A stretch of DNA of 34,184 nt. It comes from Acetobacteraceae bacterium (lineage in GTDB: Bacteria; Pseudomonadota; Alphaproteobacteria; Acetobacterales; Acetobacteraceae). The stretch is taken from the NCBI GenBank assembly GCA_031291795.1, contig JARLIJ010000295.1:1-34184 (forward strand), written 5' to 3'. The notes under the pieces were generated by a model. It was not told the origin of the DNA. It worked only from the letters and a program-made list of their open reading frames with translations, and ran no database searches. Shown here one piece after another: positions 14,596 through 23,783 of this stretch (position 1 is its first letter; the number at the start of each line of letters is the position of its first letter). The position numbers and the translations under genes were made by a program.

Positions 14596-14808
14596 GCTGC
14601 CGCGCGATCCGAAGCATGCTGCCTCGCCATGTCGAATGTCCCACCCACGGCCCTGCTCTACCCTTCGTGATTGCGTGGCGCAGCTTCTGCCCCCCGTGCG
14701 CATCGCCAGCAAGCCCGGCTGGAGGCAAACCGTGATCGCACGGACCTGCCACCGGTTTCCAGCCCGCGCCCCCTCGTCTATGGAATACCGGCAACGGATG
14801 GAGGCAGA

Positions 14809-15813
14809 ATGACAACGCTGGTCACCGGCGCGACCGGCTTCGTCGGATCGGCCGTCGCACGCGTCCTGGCGGCACGCGGCCACACATTGCGGCTGATGAC
14901 GCGCGCGAGCAGCGATCGCCGCAACCTGGCAGGCGTCGAGGCCGAAATCGTGGTCGGCGACCTGACCGACCATGCCTCCCTCGCACGGGCGGTGGCCGGC
15001 TGCCACTACCTGGTCCACGTGGCTGCCGATTACCGGTTCTGGGTGCCGGACCCGGCGGCGATGCTGCGGGCCAATGTCGAGGGCACCGTCGCGATCATGC
15101 GCGCCGCGCAGCAGGCCGGCGTCGAGCGCATCGTGCATTGCAGCTCCGTCGCGGCCCTCGGCCTGAAAGGGGACGGCAGCATCGCAGACGAGGAATCGCC
15201 GACCAAGGAGGCCGACTTCGTGGGCATCTATAAAAGGTCGAAGTTCCTGGGGGAGCGGGCGGTCGTGGACCTGGTCCGCCAGGAGGGACTGCCGGCCGTG
15301 ATCGTCAACCCGGCCGCCCCGGTCGGGCCGCGCGACATCAAGCCGACGCCAACCGGCAAGATGATCCTGGATGCCGCCGCTGGCCGCGTGCCGGCCTATA
15401 TCGATACCGGGATCAACATCGTCCATGTCGACGACGTCGCGGAAGGCCATGCCCTGGCCCTCGAACATGGCCGCGTCGGTGAACGGTACGTGCTGGGCGG
15501 TGAGAACCTGCTGCTGAAGGACCTGCTGATACTGGTCGCAGATGTGTCCGGCAGCCGGCCTCCGTTGATGCGATTGCCGGAGGCGGCGGTCTGGCCGGTC
15601 GCCCTGGTCATGGAAGGGGTTGCCAAGCTGACCGGCATTCCGCCGATGATGACGCGCGACCATCTTAAGATGGCCCGCAAGAAGATGTACTACTCATCCG
15701 CCAAGGCGATTGCGGAGCTGGGATACCGTCCGCGGCCGGTCCGCCAGGCCGTGGAGGACGCCGTCGCCTGGTTCCGCGCCAACGGGATGCTGCGGGGCCA
15801 GGATCGCACATGA
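14809..15813 (+). CDS. hpnA: hopanoid-associated sugar epimerase
   Basis: MTTLVTGATGFVGSAVARVLAARGHTLRLMTRASSDRRNLAGVEAEIVVGDLTD; YKRSK; first gene of a translationally coupled hpn series. Confidence 0.92.
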   Translation: MTTLVTGATGFVGSAVARVLAARGHTLRLMTRASSDRRNLAGVEAEIVVGDLTDHASLARAVAGCHYLVHVAADYRFWVPDPAAMLRANVEGTVAIMRAAQQAGVERIVHCSSVAALGLKGDGSIADEESPTKEADFVGIYKRSKFLGERAVVDLVRQEGLPAVIVNPAAPVGPRDIKPTPTGKMILDAAAGRVPAYIDTGINIVHVDDVAEGHALALEHGRVGERYVLGGENLLLKDLLILVADVSGSRPPLMRLPEAAVWPVALVMEGVAKLTGIPPMMTRDHLKMARKKMYYSSAKAIAELGYRPRPVRQAVEDAVAWFRANGMLRGQDRT

Positions 15814-16925
15814 TTGGTCTGGTGACCCTCTCGCTGATCATCTGGCTCTATCTGGTGCTGGGCCATGGGCGGTTCTGGCAGGCCGGGCCGGTCCTGCCGC
15901 CGGACCGCCCGGTGGTGGCGCCGCCGGTCGCCGTGGTCGTTCCCGCCCGCGATGAGGCGCCGCTGATCGCCGAGACGCTGCGCTCGTTGCTGGCTCAGGA
16001 CTATCCCGGCACCTTGCGGGTGATCCTGGTCGACGACGGCAGCACGGACGGCACCGGCGATATCGCCCGCAGCCTTGCGGATACCCGCCTGACCGTGCTG
16101 TCCGGTGCGCCCCGCCCGGCTGGGTGGAGCGGCAAGCTCTGGGCCGTCCACCAGGGCATCGCCGAAGCCGGGGAAGCCGCCCTGATCCTGCTCACCGACG
16201 CCGATATTGTGCATGACCCGCGCCACATCGCGGCACTTGTGGCGCAGGCCGAGCGGCGGGATTATGATCTCGTTTCTGAGATGGTCGCGCTGGCGTGCAA
16301 CAGTGCGGCGGAACGGGCGCTTGTTCCTGCATTCGTGTTTTTCTTTCAATTGCTGTACCCTTTCAGTCGGGTAAACGATTCGCTGTCCGCCACCGCCGCC
16401 GCGGCTGGGGGGACCATATTGATCCGCGACCGCGCATTGGTTCGGATTGGCGGGATTGAGGCAGTGCGAGGCAGGTTGATCGACGACGTGGCGCTTGCGG
16501 CCGCCGTGAAACGCGGTGGCAAGATCTGGCTTGGACACTCGGCGCTGGCCCGCTCCGTGCGGCCCTATCCATCGGTCTTGGATATCTGGCGCATGGTCGC
16601 CCGCACGGCCTATGTGCAGCTCCGATTCTCGCCCCTGCTGCTGGTCGCCACGACCATCGGGATGGCTTTGACCTGGCTGGTGCCGCCGGCAGCCGCTCTG
16701 TTCGGCCACGGGCTGGCGCGCAACCTCGGCATCCTGACCTGGGTCCTGCTCGCCGCCAGCTACCTGCCGACCCTGCGCCGTTTCGGCCGCTCGCCGCTCT
16801 GGGCGCCGTTTCTTCCGATCGTGGCAGCATTCTACATGGCCGCAACGATCGGCTCCGCGATCAACCACCATTTGGGACGCGGCGTCGCGTGGAAAGGCCG
16901 CGCCTACCAGGAGGCAGGCGAGTGA
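15810..16925 (+). CDS. hpnB: hopanoid biosynthesis-associated glycosyltransferase
   Basis: GT2 motifs VVVPARDEAPLIAETLRSLLAQDYPG and LVDDGSTDGTGDIA; C-terminal TM segments. ATGA overlap with hpnA. Confidence 0.92.
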   Translation: MIGLVTLSLIIWLYLVLGHGRFWQAGPVLPPDRPVVAPPVAVVVPARDEAPLIAETLRSLLAQDYPGTLRVILVDDGSTDGTGDIARSLADTRLTVLSGAPRPAGWSGKLWAVHQGIAEAGEAALILLTDADIVHDPRHIAALVAQAERRDYDLVSEMVALACNSAAERALVPAFVFFFQLLYPFSRVNDSLSATAAAAGGTILIRDRALVRIGGIEAVRGRLIDDVALAAAVKRGGKIWLGHSALARSVRPYPSVLDIWRMVARTAYVQLRFSPLLLVATTIGMALTWLVPPAAALFGHGLARNLGILTWVLLAASYLPTLRRFGRSPLWAPFLPIVAAFYMAATIGSAINHHLGRGVAWKGRAYQEAGE

Positions 16926-17758
16926 GTCAGGTGGCTGACGTTGAGGTATGGTCGGGCAAGGATCGCGGGGACGAGAACTTCCCGGTCGGCTCCGTAATCA
17001 TCCGGCGTGCCCTGCGTCCGCATGTGCATGCCTATTATTCGTTCGCCCGCAACGCCGACGACATCGCCGACTCCCCGACGCTGCGGCCCGACGACAAGAT
17101 TGCCCGCCTCGATACCATGGAGGACGTGCTGCTCGGGCACCGCGACGGTGGTTCCCCCAGCGCGATCAAGCTGCGCGAGAGCCTGGCGCAGACCGGCGTC
17201 TCGGCGGTGCACGCCACCGACCTGCTGATCGCCTTCCGCCGCGATGCGGTGCAGCGGCGCTACATGACGATCGACGACCTGTACAACTACTGCCGCTATT
17301 CCGCGGTGCCGGTCGGGCGCTACGTGCTCGACCTGCATGGCGAGAGCCATGAATGCTACTCGTCGTCCGATGCGCTGTGCATCGCCCTGCAAGTGCTCAA
17401 CCATATGCAGGATTGCGCCATCGACCTGGCCCAGCTCGATCGCTGCTACCTGCCGCAGAGCCTGCTGGACCATTTCGGGGTGAAGGTGGTCGACCTTCGG
17501 TTGCCGGCGGAAACGCCTGCCTTGCGCCGGGTGTTCGTTACGCTGCTCGACCGGATCGACCGGCTGACCCAGGCCGCCGCGGAGCTGCCCGAGATCACAC
17601 GCGACAAACGCCTGAAGATGGAGACCGCCGCAATCCTCCGCCTCGCCCGCCGCCTGGCTCGCCGACTGGCACTGACCGATCCGTTGGCCTCACGCGTGAA
17701 GCTGACCCGGGGCGACTTCGCCCTCAGCACGCTGGGCGCGCTGCGGCATTTGCTGTGA
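16922..17758 (+). CDS. hpnC: HpnC, squalene synthase-like (presqualene diphosphate-derived hydroxysqualene formation)
   Basis: VGSVIIRRALRPHVHAYYSFARNADDIADSPTL (Asp-rich), LNHMQDCAIDLAQLDRCYLPQSLL. GTG start overlapping the hpnB stop. Confidence 0.93.
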   Translation: MSQVADVEVWSGKDRGDENFPVGSVIIRRALRPHVHAYYSFARNADDIADSPTLRPDDKIARLDTMEDVLLGHRDGGSPSAIKLRESLAQTGVSAVHATDLLIAFRRDAVQRRYMTIDDLYNYCRYSAVPVGRYVLDLHGESHECYSSSDALCIALQVLNHMQDCAIDLAQLDRCYLPQSLLDHFGVKVVDLRLPAETPALRRVFVTLLDRIDRLTQAAAELPEITRDKRLKMETAAILRLARRLARRLALTDPLASRVKLTRGDFALSTLGALRHLL

Positions 17759-18609
17759 CCGCTTCGCTCGCCGCCTCCCAGGCCGACCTCGACGCGGTCG
17801 AGATGGTCGTCCGCAAGGCTGGCACGTCGTTCTATCGCGGCATGCGCGTGCTGCCCCCGGACCGCCGGCAGGCGATGTACGCGATCTACGCTTTCTGCCG
17901 CCTGGTCGATGACATCGCCGATGAAGAAGGCAGCCTGGCCGAGAAGCGCCACGGCCTGGCCGCCTGGCGGGACCGGGTGGCGGGACTCTATCAGGGGCAG
18001 GCCGACGACCCGGTCACGCGCGTCCTGCTTGCCGCCGTCAATCGCTTCGCCTTGCGGGCGGAAGACTTCATCGCCGTGATCGACGGCATGCAGATGGATG
18101 CCGAATCCACCATCGTCGCGCCTGACCTGGCGACGCTGGACCTGTACTGCGATCGGGTGGCTGGTGCCGTGGGACGCTTGTCGGTCCGCGCATTCGGCGA
18201 TGCCTCCTCCGACGCCGATCGCGTCGCGTTTGCCCTGGGACGTGCCCTGCAGCTCACCAACATCCTGCGCGACATCCAGGAGGATGCGGAGCGCGGCCGG
18301 CTCTATCTGCCACGCGAATACCTCCAGGATGCCGGCGTCCCGCTGGATCCGGTTGCAGCCCTGACCGCAGCCGGTCTTCCCGCGGTGTGCGAACGGCTCG
18401 CGATCCTGGCGCACCGGCATTTCGCGACGGCGGCCAACGCGATGCAGGCGTGCGACCGGCGGGCGATGAAGCCGGCGCGATTGATGGGCGCGACCTACGC
18501 CGCAATCCTGTCGGAACTCGAGCGAAGGGGCTGGCGCAGGCTGGGCGAGCGGGTGAGCCTGCCGAAATGGCGGAAGCTCTGGCTGGTGCTACGCTACGGT
18601 CTGTTCTGA
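17755..18609 (+). CDS. hpnD: HpnD, presqualene diphosphate synthase
   Basis: GTSFYRGMRVLPPDRRQAMYAIYAFCRLVDDIADEEG; LQLTNILRDIQEDAERGRLYLPREYL. GTG start overlapping the hpnC stop (GTGA). Confidence 0.94.
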   Translation: MTASLAASQADLDAVEMVVRKAGTSFYRGMRVLPPDRRQAMYAIYAFCRLVDDIADEEGSLAEKRHGLAAWRDRVAGLYQGQADDPVTRVLLAAVNRFALRAEDFIAVIDGMQMDAESTIVAPDLATLDLYCDRVAGAVGRLSVRAFGDASSDADRVAFALGRALQLTNILRDIQEDAERGRLYLPREYLQDAGVPLDPVAALTAAGLPAVCERLAILAHRHFATAANAMQACDRRAMKPARLMGATYAAILSELERRGWRRLGERVSLPKWRKLWLVLRYGLF

Positions 18610-19176: not shown

Positions 19177-19689
19177 CTAGCGCGCGTTCGCTTCCAGCAG
19201 GGCGCGTAGGCCGGCCAGCAGACGGGCCGGGGTCGGCGGGCAGCCGCTGATCGTCAGGTCGACCGGTACAACCGATCCGGTTCCGGCGAGCACCGCGTAG
19301 CTGCCCTTGAACACCCCGCCATCCACCGCGCAATCGCCGACCGCGACAACCCATTTCGGGTCCGGGGTCGCATCCCATGCCTGTTCCAGGGCCGTGCGCA
19401 GCGTACGCGTCAACGGGCCGGTCGTTACAAGCACGTCCGCATGGCGCGGGCTGTCGACGAACCGCAGGCCGTATCGCTCCAGGTCGTAGAGCACACCGGT
19501 CAGCGCGCGGAGCTCCAGCTCGCAACCACCGCAACTTCCCGCGTTGACATGGCAGATCGCCAGGCTGCGGCCTAGCCGCTGCTGGGACGCGGAGTCGAGG
19601 CGAGCCGCCAGGGACTGGGTGGTTTCCGCGTCCGGCGTCGGGCCTGGGTCGGCCGCATGGCGGCGCCAGAAGCGGCGAGGGTCGATCAC
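19177..19689 (-). CDS. hydrogenase-4/formate hydrogenlyase small-subunit-like protein (HyfI/HycG/NuoB family)
   Basis: GTG start. NAGSCGGCELELRALTGVLYDLERYGLRFVDSPRHADVLVTTGPLTRTLRTAL...VAVGDCAVDGGVFKGSYAV...VDLTISGCPPTPARLL: [4Fe-4S] motif cysteines retained. Confidence 0.88.
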   Translation of the reverse strand: MIDPRRFWRRHAADPGPTPDAETTQSLAARLDSASQQRLGRSLAICHVNAGSCGGCELELRALTGVLYDLERYGLRFVDSPRHADVLVTTGPLTRTLRTALEQAWDATPDPKWVVAVGDCAVDGGVFKGSYAVLAGTGSVVPVDLTISGCPPTPARLLAGLRALLEANAR

Positions 19690-21173
19690 AGGTCGGCTCC
19701 CGAAGCAGTCAGGCCGAACGAACGCTGGATGGCGGGCACGTCTTCCAGGGCTGCCCCCTGCATGGCCCACTCGGCCAGCGGCCACAACGCCCAGCCCGGA
19801 TCCCGCGGGAACGCGGCAGCGATCTGGCCATGGTCGAGACGCAGCCAGTGCCATACGTCGCCGCGTGCCGATTCCGCACAGCCGATCCCTTCGCCGCTCA
19901 GCATCGGCAGCGCGACCGAGGTGCCGCCATCCGGCAGGGTATCGAGCAAGCGGCCAAGCAGGCGCAGGCTGGACTCGATTTCGACGAGTTGCAGGCGGCA
20001 GCGCGCGGCGGCATCGCCCGTGGTGTCGATCGGTGCGGTCACGCTGCGTTCGTCGCGCAATTGCCGTGCATCGAACCGGCGCCCGCTGGCGCGCCCCGCG
20101 ACCCCGCCGGCCGCAAAGGCGTGCACCATCTGGCGGTCGACCCGGCCCAGTCCGACAAGGCGTGTCAGGCATGCGCTGGATTCGAGCAGGCGGCGCAGCC
20201 CCGGCAGCGCCGTGACCACCCGTCCCACTCCGCGTCGCACCGCGCGCATGCCTTCGGGCCCCACATCGGCTGCAACCCCGCCCGGCACGACGCAATCCAT
20301 CATCAACCGGTGCCCGAATGCGATTTCCAGCTCGCGGGCAAGCAACTCGCGCTGCTCTCCACAGGTGGCGGCCACCCCTGGCGCGCCCGCGGCATCGCCC
20401 AGCAGGGCCAGGTCGCCGAGATGCACGGTGATCCGTTCCAGCTCCCCCATCATGCGCCTCAGGGTCGCGGCGCGCGGGGGAGCGGCGACCGCAAGGGCGG
20501 CCTCGGTCGCGAGCGCGAAGGCGAGCGAATGGGCCACGGTCGCTTCCGCCCCCAGCCGTGCCACGAACCGGGCGGCAGTACGCGGCGGTTTGCCGCGCAT
20601 CAGGGCGAGTGTTCCCTTGTGGGTGTAGCCGAGGCGCGCTTCCGCACGCTCGACCGTCTCGCCCCGCAGTGTCAGCCGCAGGTGCCAGGCGTCGTCGATG
20701 CACCCGATGATCGGGCCGATCGGGAGCTGGAACAGCCCGTCCTCTGTGGGGGGCAGGAAGTCGGGCGGCTCCGCCATTGCGGGCGGCGGCACCGGGCGCG
20801 GCGACAGCGGCGCGCTGTGCGGCCACAGGCCGTGGTCCAGCCAGGGCCGGGCATCCATGCCGCCGGTCGCTGCGTGGCCCCACAGGTCGTGGATCAGGCG
20901 CTCGAACCAGGCCGCGCCTGGGCGGGCCGGGGACAGCGCGGTGTAGGCGCCGGCTTCGACCGGGACCGATGCCAGGAGGGGCAGATCCTCCGCCTCGGTC
21001 AGGAAGAGCGCATGCACATGCGTGGTGTCGGCCCAGAGTCCCACCAAGGCGAGGCTCGGATCGGCGACCAGGAAGGCGGCCATGGCGGCCCAATCGGTGG
21101 GTGTCAGGATGTGACGCGGCCAGGGATGGCAGCTTTCGGCGCCGGCCGAGGCGATGATCGCGGCGGCGGTCAT
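19686..21173 (-). CDS. hydrogenase-4 large-subunit-like protein (HyfG/HycE, NuoC-NuoD fusion) lacking the NiFe ligand cysteines
   Basis: NuoC-like AWFERLIHDLWGH, then large-subunit core GYTHKGTLALMRGKPPRTAARFVARLGAEATVAHSLAFALATEAAL...MGELERITVHLGDLALL. RxCGxC aligns with RLGAEA and the C-terminal DPCxxC with GLTASG. Confidence 0.85.
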   Translation of the reverse strand: MTAAAIIASAGAESCHPWPRHILTPTDWAAMAAFLVADPSLALVGLWADTTHVHALFLTEAEDLPLLASVPVEAGAYTALSPARPGAAWFERLIHDLWGHAATGGMDARPWLDHGLWPHSAPLSPRPVPPPAMAEPPDFLPPTEDGLFQLPIGPIIGCIDDAWHLRLTLRGETVERAEARLGYTHKGTLALMRGKPPRTAARFVARLGAEATVAHSLAFALATEAALAVAAPPRAATLRRMMGELERITVHLGDLALLGDAAGAPGVAATCGEQRELLARELEIAFGHRLMMDCVVPGGVAADVGPEGMRAVRRGVGRVVTALPGLRRLLESSACLTRLVGLGRVDRQMVHAFAAGGVAGRASGRRFDARQLRDERSVTAPIDTTGDAAARCRLQLVEIESSLRLLGRLLDTLPDGGTSVALPMLSGEGIGCAESARGDVWHWLRLDHGQIAAAFPRDPGWALWPLAEWAMQGAALEDVPAIQRSFGLTASGADL

Positions 21174-22288
21174 GGGGGTGCCACCGCCATTGCGTGGAAC
21201 CAGGCGGCGATCGGGGCCGGCATCGCGAAGCCGAGCAGCAGGGCCAGGACCAGTGGAAGCCAGGCCGGGCTCAGGTGCGCGGGCCCGACCGCCGCCGGTA
21301 GGCTGGCGACGCAGACCCAGCCCAGGCCGACCAAGCCGACAGCCATCGGCAGCAGCAACCACGGCGCCATCACGGCAATTCCCCCCACGATCAATGCCAG
21401 GCTCGGAAACAGGCCGATCGGCGGCAGGCCGGACAGGCCGAGGAGGCTTGCAAGGCGATCGAGGCCGGCCTCGCCCGAGAGCAGCAGGGCGCTGCGTGAC
21501 AGCGTCAGCAGCGCCAGGTGGACCAGGCCGGCAAACCGCAGGTCCGGGCCGCCGAGACCGAAGCCGCACAAGGCAACACCGCCCTGGGCGAGCGTCGTCA
21601 GGTTGGGGAGCCGGCGCAGGCCGGGCCGCCGCAACAGGAGGACCGCGGCCGACGCCAGCAGCACGCCGAGGCCGCCGGCGACCATCAGGTTACCCACCAG
21701 GTTGCCGTGCGATTCGGCGCCGGTGGCGGCCTGCAGGCGCAGCGCCAGCAGCAGCACCAGAGGCAACAGGGTCGGATCGAGCACGACCAGCGCGCCCCAG
21801 CCGAGCAGCAGGGCCGCACCGCCGATCGGCACCGACCCGGCCTGCAATGCCACCACGCCGAACAAGGCAAGGCCGAGGGATACGTTGCCCGCCAGCAGCC
21901 GCGCGGCGACGGCATCGGTGCGCGGTAGCCGGCGCGCGGCGCCCGCGGTACTCGCCAGCGCCAGGAACAACAGGCTCACGAGCGGGTCGGCGGGCCGCAA
22001 TGCCAGCAGCATGGCCGCGAGGCGGAGCTGGCCGGCCGCCTGGACAAACCGGTGGCGCGAAGGGCCCGCAACGGCATCGGTCAGCGCGCCCGCGGCGAAC
22101 AGGATCGCGAGCAGATCGGCGGCACTCGGCGCGGGCGCGTCCGCCATCCAGGGCAGCACCAGGGCGAGCAGCAGGACCAGCAGGCAGGCGCCCTGGTCGA
22201 CCCGGCGACGCCACGCGGTCGCATGCAGCGCGACCAGCAGCGCTGCAGCCAGGAGCGGCGGGACGGCCAGGCCGGTGCTCGGGATCAC
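21170..22288 (-). CDS. short HyfF/NuoN-like antiporter-family membrane subunit
   Basis: Multi-TM, LPNLTTLAQGGVALCGFGLGG...LSGLPPIGLFPSLALIVGG, operon position between hyfE-like and hyfG-like genes. GTG start coupled to the upstream stop. Confidence 0.72.
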   Translation of the reverse strand: MIPSTGLAVPPLLAAALLVALHATAWRRRVDQGACLLVLLLALVLPWMADAPAPSAADLLAILFAAGALTDAVAGPSRHRFVQAAGQLRLAAMLLALRPADPLVSLLFLALASTAGAARRLPRTDAVAARLLAGNVSLGLALFGVVALQAGSVPIGGAALLLGWGALVVLDPTLLPLVLLLALRLQAATGAESHGNLVGNLMVAGGLGVLLASAAVLLLRRPGLRRLPNLTTLAQGGVALCGFGLGGPDLRFAGLVHLALLTLSRSALLLSGEAGLDRLASLLGLSGLPPIGLFPSLALIVGGIAVMAPWLLLPMAVGLVGLGWVCVASLPAAVGPAHLSPAWLPLVLALLLGFAMPAPIAAWFHAMAVAPP

Positions 22289-22878
22289 GACAGCCGGTCT
22301 CCCTGCGGCCACTCTCCCTCCGGTCGTTCTCCCTTTGGCCGCTCACCAGTGGGCCATCCTCCCGCCGCGTGCAGCAGCAGCGCAGCGAGGGCGAGGGCGG
22401 GGAGGACTGGCACGGCCACGGCGATCGGCAGCAGCGGCGCAGTGCCTGCAAGCCCGCTTGCCGCGAGCACTGCCGCCTGCTGCAGGCTGCACAGCCCCAG
22501 CGCCTGCAGGATCGGGCTGGGACGCGCCCCCACCAGCAGCAAGCCAAGCAGCAGGATCGCCAGCGGCAAGGCCAGCGTGCCGGCGGCCGCGGCCACCAGG
22601 CTGAGCACGGCTGCCGCGGCCAGCGTGACCGGCATGCTCCAGGTTCGGTCGCCTGCCGCCGACACGACGGCCCATTGGCGCGCCAGCCAGGGGACCGCCA
22701 GCACGGAGACCGCATTCAGGGCCGCGGCGGACAGCGCGTGCTGGGCCGCGACGGCGACCGACACCGCCAGCCCCTGCAGGCCGAACAGCAAGAGTGCCAG
22801 ACCAGTCCGGCGGGCGCAGAGCAGCCCGAAGCTGAGGATCAGCGCGAGGCCACCCATGCCCTGTGAGAGCGCGTTCAT
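22285..22878 (-). CDS. HyfE-like membrane subunit
   Basis: MNALSQGMGGLALILSFGLLCARRTGLALLLFGLQGLAVSVAVAAQ (HyfE N-terminal NuoK-like TM region). Hydrophilic repeat tail GERPKGERPEGEWPQGDRLS. Confidence 0.75.
   Translation of the reverse strand: MNALSQGMGGLALILSFGLLCARRTGLALLLFGLQGLAVSVAVAAQHALSAAALNAVSVLAVPWLARQWAVVSAAGDRTWSMPVTLAAAAVLSLVAAAAGTLALPLAILLLGLLLVGARPSPILQALGLCSLQQAAVLAASGLAGTAPLLPIAVAVPVLPALALAALLLHAAGGWPTGERPKGERPEGEWPQGDRLS
22296..22355 (-). repeat. four degenerate 15-nt units encoding the GE(R/W)P(K/E/Q)G-type tail of the HyfE-like protein
   Basis: Plus-strand units GGTCTCCCTGCGGCC / ACTCTCCCTCCGGTC / GTTCTCCCTTTGGCC / GCTCACCAGTGGGCC. Confidence 0.65.
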
Positions 22879-23783
22879 GCGGATGATGCGCTGGACAGGG
22901 CGAAGACAACGGCGATCAGGGCCAGGAGCCCGGCGACCGCCAGCAACTCGGCCGTGGCGCGCGGCCGGTGACGCCCGAAGGTGCGGCGGCAGGCCGCCAG
23001 CGCGAGGGCGAGCACCGTCAGCTTGGCCAGCCAGGCCGCCAGGCCGACCAGCCAGGCCACCAGGCCGCCACCTGCCTCGGCGATGCCGATCGGCAGGAAC
23101 AGGGCACTCAGCAGGTTGAGCCAGACGAGAACGCCGAACGCGTCGGCGAGGCCGGTGACCGCCAAGGTACCGCCGCTCAGCTCGGGGTCGGCCGCGTCCC
23201 GGCTCCGGCTGATCGTCACGGCGACCAGCGCCGCGGCGGCGAGCGCCGAGGCAGCGGCCGGCTGCATCATCCCCTCCCGCTGGAGGGACACGATCAGGTC
23301 GAGGTTGCTGGTGCCGGCCAGCAGCGCCAGGGTGAACACCGCCAGCAGCAAGGCGGGCTCCCCGAACAGCGCCAGCCGCATGCTGCTTGCCGCCACGATG
23401 CCGCCTTTGGCGGTGCCGGCATCCATGGCCGTGAGGGCTGCCGCGGCGCGCGCGACCCCGAGCAGCGCCACGATCGCCAGCAGGTCGGCCAGCGGGCTCA
23501 GGGCCATGCCAAGGGTGAACGAGGGCACCAGGGCCGCCGCGGCGGTCGTTGCGGCAAGCCGGACGACCGGCGCGAACGGGGTCATGGACGAGGCGCTCTG
23601 GGCCAGCAGCGGCCGCTTGCGGGCCAGGCGGGCGAGATCGCGCCAGACTTGCAGGACGGGTGGCCCGTGGCGGCCATCGAGGCGTGCTTCGGTCGCCGCC
23701 AGGACGCCGGCCAAGGTCGGCGCGGTGAGCACCATCAGAACGATGTGGATCCCCTGCGCCAGCAGCGCGGCAAGGATGCTCAC
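22875..23783 (-). CDS. HyfC/HycD/NuoH-like membrane subunit
   Basis: GTG start. GRHGPPVLQVWRDLARLARKRPLL (NuoH-family loop), MDAGTAKGGIVAASSMRLALFGEPALLLAVFTLAL, LNLLSALFLPIGIA. Confidence 0.83.
   Translation of the reverse strand: MSILAALLAQGIHIVLMVLTAPTLAGVLAATEARLDGRHGPPVLQVWRDLARLARKRPLLAQSASSMTPFAPVVRLAATTAAAALVPSFTLGMALSPLADLLAIVALLGVARAAAALTAMDAGTAKGGIVAASSMRLALFGEPALLLAVFTLALLAGTSNLDLIVSLQREGMMQPAAASALAAAALVAVTISRSRDAADPELSGGTLAVTGLADAFGVLVWLNLLSALFLPIGIAEAGGGLVAWLVGLAAWLAKLTVLALALAACRRTFGRHRPRATAELLAVAGLLALIAVVFALSSASSA

Follow-up and report, generated by a model that had tools for sequence, protein, structure and literature searches.

Loss of channel residues, coupling loop and NiFe ligands in an Ehr-type operon of the Acetobacteraceae

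The six-gene operon and its large subunit

The window, that is the whole 34,184-nucleotide stretch of DNA analysed (contig JARLIJ010000295.1 of assembly GCA_031291795.1, from an Acetobacteraceae bacterium), contains an operon with the gene order B-C-E-F-G-I on the reverse strand (25693-19177, Table 1). HyfA, HyfD and HyfH were not found in this six-gene operon, nor was an electron-input subunit of the HyfA, HyfH or NuoI type. The GTG start of hyfI overlaps the hyfG stop by four bases.

Table 1. Positions of the operon genes and of the vestigial ligand motifs in the window
Feature	Position	Strand	Evidence
HyfI/NuoB-like Fe-S subunit, 170 aa, GTG start	19177..19689	(-)	Pfam Oxidored_q6 3.1e-30
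HyfG-like large subunit, 495 aa + stop	19686..21173	(-)	Pfam, PDB, alignment, AF2, Foldseek
Vestigial second ligand motif DVPAIQRSFGLTASG, 3 residues before C-terminus	19698..19742	(-)	
Vestigial first ligand motif ARLGAEATVAHS	20526..20561	(-)	
HyfF-like antiporter subunit, shortened, 380 aa	21170..22312	(-)	alignment, composition, AF2
HyfE-like membrane subunit, 197 aa, strongly diverged	22285..22878	(-)	
HyfC/NuoH-like membrane anchor, 302 aa, GTG start	22875..23783	(-)	Pfam NADHdh 5.2e-14, alignments
HyfB-like antiporter subunit, 637 aa	23780..25693	(-)	NCBIfam, Pfam, residue tables

When the HyfG-like protein was aligned with E. coli HycE, HyfG and NuoCD, the positions of HycE C241, C244, C531 and C534 were found to be occupied by G, A, T and G, respectively. 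The claim of the original prediction that all four NiFe ligands have gone from this protein was thus borne out. The loss is also genuine, as had been argued, and does not reflect a frameshift or a misassignment: both motifs are present and in register within the 21173-19686 frame (stop codon included; 21173-19689 without it). The lower coordinates of the two motifs had been placed correctly, but the upper ones had not: ARLGAEATVAHS had been given as 20526-20558 and extends to 20561, whereas DVPAIQRSFGLTASG had been given as 19698-19715 and extends to 19742. Seven other cysteines remain in the protein (positions 15, 158, 271, 294, 335, 392 and 432), none of them in a ligand column. The terminus, SGADL, lies three residues beyond the last ligand position, whereas HycE runs for 35 more, hence there is no tail for a maturation protease. 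With these residues the protein cannot hold a NiFe centre, and it is nearly certain that hydrogenase activity is absent. The GPxH histidine, the equivalent of the quinone-site histidine of NuoD, is replaced by isoleucine; the positions of NuoCD H220 and Y273 hold I and A.

The homology of the large subunit with HycE is secure, and its fold appears to be preserved. Its best PDB sequence match is HycE (7z0s, 2.7e-31), Pfam reports Complex1_49kDa and a weak NiFeSe_Hases match, and the best NCBIfam family is NuoD, below cut-off. The AlphaFold2 model is confident (pLDDT 89.9, pTM 0.92) except in residues 155-162, 182-184 and 491-495, which correspond to the beta1-beta2 loop and the surroundings of the former metal site, and Foldseek matches the model with HycE over the full length (TM 0.91).

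A genome-wide search yielded 80 related loci in Alpha-, Beta- and Gammaproteobacteria. In each of the about 75 examined no more than one of the ligand cysteines is left, so that no orthologue with four cysteines is available to suggest a local sequencing artefact; the ligand columns of the aligned clusters contain mainly S, S, S and G. Absence of the NiFe ligands is the condition known from Ehr (energy-converting hydrogenase-related) complexes (PMC6349859), whose description by Marreiros et al. 2013 is taken here from its citation in PMC6349859 and PMC6728331. Being universal among the related loci and already known for Ehr, ligand loss is unremarkable by itself. As had been anticipated, annotation misleads: relatives carry names such as 'nickel-dependent hydrogenase large subunit', 'NADH-quinone oxidoreductase subunit C' and 'hydrogenase expression protein HypE', and in dozens of genomes a name of hydrogenase or NADH dehydrogenase given by homology would be in error. 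The original prediction was right about the residues and the link to Ehr, yet the finding as worded there is ordinary. The novelty lies in the other losses of the operon, which it overlooked: those of the channel residues, the coupling loop and the quinone/proton histidine.

In the window's own genome (G000) this type of cluster occurs a second time (contig C231, L004), there with SSSG in the ligand columns. This cluster (L004:5394-12887) is a canonical Ehr with every channel residue intact. The genome also bears a separate nuoD on contig C411 and, on a short contig (L179, G000:C122), a third HyfB-like gene with EKKE residues.

Membrane subunits and the Fe-S subunit

To define the losses, 46 canonical Ehr clusters were compared with 26 clusters of the window's clade, called gutted below. 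The HyfB-like protein matches Pfam Proton_antipo_M and the NCBIfam family hydrogenase 4 subunit B (6.4e-73, but far under the family cut-off). The Glu/Lys/Lys/Glu set of HyfB (NuoM 144, 234, 265 and 407) is intact in all 46 canonical clusters, whereas the window's clade has lost all four in each of its 26 clusters; the window protein has S, L, P and V there, and its lateral-helix region is shortened. HyfF, with no lysine and two glutamates, is 25.5% identical to canonical HyfF, and the canonical channel residues EKNE have become A, L, P and L; the other clusters of the clade have likewise lost these HyfF residues. Thus the conserved ion-translocation residues kept in the window number 0/4 in both HyfB and HyfF. 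From HyfF the TM7-8 segment LHAWLPDAHAEGPTPISAVLSG and two other stretches are missing throughout the gutted clade, and the boundaries of the deletions are shared. The AF2 model of HyfF is confident (pLDDT 91.6), though its alignment included canonical rows; the nearest solved fold is NuoN (TM 0.75-0.78).

The best PDB match of HyfC is HycD (7z0s). Its acidic coupling loop between TM5 and TM6 has shrunk from about 26 residues to nine (DAADPELSG) in the window; RIPVDNPATHLELTMVHEAMVLEYSG is missing from the gutted clade, most members of which have 9-12 residues left. The equivalents of HycD E203 and E206, present in 46/46 canonical clusters, are gapped in 26/26 and 22/26 gutted ones, and E130 is lost in 26/26. 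The GPxH histidine of HyfG follows the same division (46/46 canonical clusters vs 1/26 gutted). Since gutted HyfC retains R108 (26/26) and E138 (19/26), and an arginine at the HycC K433 position of HyfB is kept in 26/26, some polar path could survive, and alternative channels are conceivable. The HyfE-like protein gave no match in a Pfam search; it shares 33% identity over 72 aa with its HyfE-like counterpart from the genome's canonical cluster.

HyfI retains its four cluster cysteines (C53, C56, C120 and C150), which are present in every HyfI found in the window's clade, and it aligns without gaps, CxxC included, with the hydrogenase-type subunits MbhJ (6cfw) and HycG (7z0s). Among relatives, three of the four cluster cysteines are replaced in L175 and L177 (SGGGSAC, GDG, GSPP; frames open), and one in each of L167 and L191. 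In the canonical clusters L145, L146, L149 and L150 the HyfI gene lies elsewhere in the genome, apart from HyfG, and the impression that HyfI is missing from some canonical clusters was therefore rejected.

Distribution, ancestry and selection

Gutted HyfG occurs in 26 of the 33 genomes of the window's genus, most of which also have a canonical copy; the remaining seven have the canonical form alone. The idea that the gutted complex is an obligate helper of canonical Ehr was rejected because four near-complete genomes (G012, G016, G022 and G028, 97-100% complete) hold only the gutted one. Gutted clusters were found in about a dozen further Acetobacteraceae genera and canonical ones in others (160 genomes sampled, about 40 more loci read), the HyfB alignment of some of these further clusters being gapped at key columns. 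A cluster of the gutted Acetobacteraceae type is also borne by L011, labelled Nitrosovibrio sp., a label that is probably wrong. L055 (Rhodoferax sp. UBA5149) has a pair of Ehr clusters, different in type, that stand back to back in opposite orientation. HypD was not found in the near-complete gutted carriers G001, G003, G011, G012 and G016, nor in G000, a bin 69% complete; it is missing from most genomes of the window's genus.

In HyfG trees the gutted forms are nested within canonical Ehr, beside the canonical clusters of Limobrevibacterium and of Roseomonas type. The tree requires only one gutting, and several independent ones need not be assumed; as the support is modest (75/97, 74% of bootstraps), a single origin is likely but unproven. 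One locus (L039), whose HyfF keeps Glu144 and has lost Lys234 and Glu407, looks from these residues like a form halfway between canonical and gutted. Apparent HyfE-HyfF fusions in some relatives were dismissed, the long stop-to-stop frames being GC-rich frame read-through.

Hopanoid/squalene genes lie at 14671-18609 (+), convergent to the gutted cluster; named by eye, they are an HpnA-like reductase, a glycosyltransferase and two squalene/phytoene synthase genes. These neighbours are conserved in 17 of 28 window-type clusters, but because they are convergent a functional link was not accepted: the conserved synteny probably reflects shared ancestry and fits old vertical inheritance.

Selection on B, C, F, G and I was estimated as dN/dS by the NG86 method, comparing the most closely related members of the gutted clade in pairs; the estimates are simple ones, and the synonymous sites are GC-biased. 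The values were 0.08-0.29 for HyfI, 0.15-0.28 for HyfG and 0.23-0.47 for B, C and F, and mostly about 0.05-0.3 for canonical pairs, the membrane subunits of the gutted clade lying above those of canonical clusters. Such low values indicate purifying selection on all five genes, and constraint is strongest on the soluble core and weakest on the membrane arm. In the L175/L177 pair, which represents one genus with single-contig or near-single-contig genomes, dN/dS was.12 (G),.22 (B),.23 (F),.35 (I) and.36 (C), each significantly below 1 (Fisher p from 1e-20 to 0.003). The reading frames are open in about 45 clusters. A canonical-type HyfB with two in-frame TGA codons was seen in L195 (G144), possibly a recent pseudogene or an assembly error. 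Residues newly fixed in the gutted clade are few, mostly hydrophobic infill near the vestigial pocket (A162, L165, L167 and A177). They were rejected as proof of a new function, for which positive evidence is consequently weak.

Possible role of the complex and comparison with known systems

With moderate confidence we interpret the operon as a derived, non-pumping pseudo-Ehr, whose role is most likely structural or regulatory, perhaps with HyfI in redox sensing. It would encode a membrane complex of Ehr descent that has kept its folding, and probably its assembly, while the means of energy conversion have been lost: the acidic loop of HyfC, which couples the soluble arm to the membrane, is gone, as are the channel residues of HyfB and HyfF. 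Because selection retains the genes despite these losses, in many relatives of acetic-acid bacteria, they probably serve some job other than energy conversion, and the complex may act as a scaffold docked at the membrane or as a partner in regulation. Redox sensitivity could come from the HyfI cluster in the window's clade, as a one-electron relay or a sensor; in the most reduced relatives, where the cluster is also gone, the protein assembly alone would remain, and persistence of the complex in the cluster-less genus favours a protein-assembly role. A precedent is known from the Acetobacteraceae themselves, where a bc1 complex that does not function and a COX1-like protein devoid of cofactor ligands have been kept, and a structural role is proposed for them (PMC10715153). 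The original prediction had envisaged an Ehr-like redox or conformational module. Ehr descent is upheld by the HyfG tree and the ligand loss, whereas the sense of Ehr as a redox-driven ion pump does not fit a complex without channel residues, coupling loop and histidine; a conformational or structural module may still fit.

Judged by the residues lost, redox-driven proton pumping is very likely absent from the gutted complex. An ordinary Ehr, transferring electrons and pumping protons via unconventional residues, would account for the gene set and order, for the retained HyfI cluster ligands and for the arginines at the HycD R108 and HycC K433 positions, but we consider it highly improbable, because all eight antiporter positions of the canonical form have been lost together with the coupling loop and the TM7-8 segment. 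The three-loop system is a coupling element (PMC7684303). In formate hydrogenlyase, with its E-channel and antiporter path, substitutions of HycD E138 or of E199/E201/E203 reduce H2 production by 98-99% (PMC9474812), and in isolated antiporter modules, where the broken helices and the middle lysine matter, key-residue substitutions stop proton conduction (PMC11496545). A membrane-docked enzyme that does not pump and uses its Fe-S cluster for catalysis, as archaeal MBS does in reducing sulfane sulfur, is also quite improbable, if a little less so. HyfI is the most constrained subunit, and MBS shows that the proximal cluster can become catalytic after NiFe loss (PMC7684303). The MBS motif, however, is three residues shorter, leaving one cysteine unable to ligate, and the ungapped alignment with MbhJ and HycG predicts a fully ligated cluster for HyfI, which makes an MBS-like catalytic cluster less likely. 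The missing electron-input subunit and the related lineages that lost the cluster and kept the complex speak against catalysis as well.

That the complex is a dying relic, its function lost in an ancestor and decaying slowly since, seems unlikely rather than far-fetched. The membrane subunits do evolve faster than canonical ones, the adjacency of HyfI or its cysteines have been lost on some branches, and some strains of the genus are without the gutted cluster. Against decay stand the open frames, the prevalence within the genus and dN/dS values well below 1 in all five genes, even in the recent cluster-less pair. An artefact of sequencing or assembly confined to this genome, for which one might cite the low completeness of the host bin and its 417 contigs, is refuted by the same replacements in 25 other clusters of the clade, among them those of the isolates Rhodopila globiformis DSM 161 (L015) and Acidisphaera sp. 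S103 (L008).

If the preferred reading as a non-pumping pseudo-Ehr is true, these clusters would form a natural deletion series (canonical, partly degraded as in L039, gutted with cluster, gutted without cluster), in which the needs of the fold for assembly could be separated from those for pumping, and would offer natural non-pumping controls. The function of Ehr is itself an open question, also for the hyc genes of M. tuberculosis, for which hydrogenase has been excluded (PMC6728331). If a family drops pump and active site yet retains the complex, some of what Ehr does would seem to lie outside energy conversion. Among open-licence papers none was found that names a gutted Ehr variant.

With Ehr the window cluster shares the six-subunit B-C-E-F-G-I set, the ligand-less HyfG, the NuoB-type Fe-S subunit with four cysteines and the antiporter-like subunits; canonical Ehr, however, keeps the channel Glu/Lys residues, the acidic loop of HyfC and the GPxH histidine of HyfG, all of which the window cluster has lost. 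The folds and the order of the subunits are those of E. coli Hyc/Hyf (formate hydrogenlyase, hydrogenase-3 and -4), from which the operon differs in lacking the NiFe ligands, the maturation tail and the ferredoxin subunits HyfA and HyfH. Group 4 [NiFe] hydrogenases have two NiFe-binding CxxC pairs and a cleavable C-terminal extension, whereas the window HyfG has neither. The subunits are homologous to those of complex I (NuoB/C/D/H/K/L/M/N), but the quinone-site His/Tyr, the NADH module and the antiporter residues are absent. The deranged bc1 and COX1-like proteins come from the same family and likewise represent a respiratory complex kept after loss of cofactor ligands; they belong to another complex, and a term search of PMC10715153 gave no mention of Ehr or Hyf. 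MBS and MBX of Pyrococcus are, similarly, complex I relatives without a NiFe site, but both have kept their ion-pumping subunits. In MBS two of the four ligand cysteines remain, and the cluster motif is shortened, unlike that of the window HyfI.
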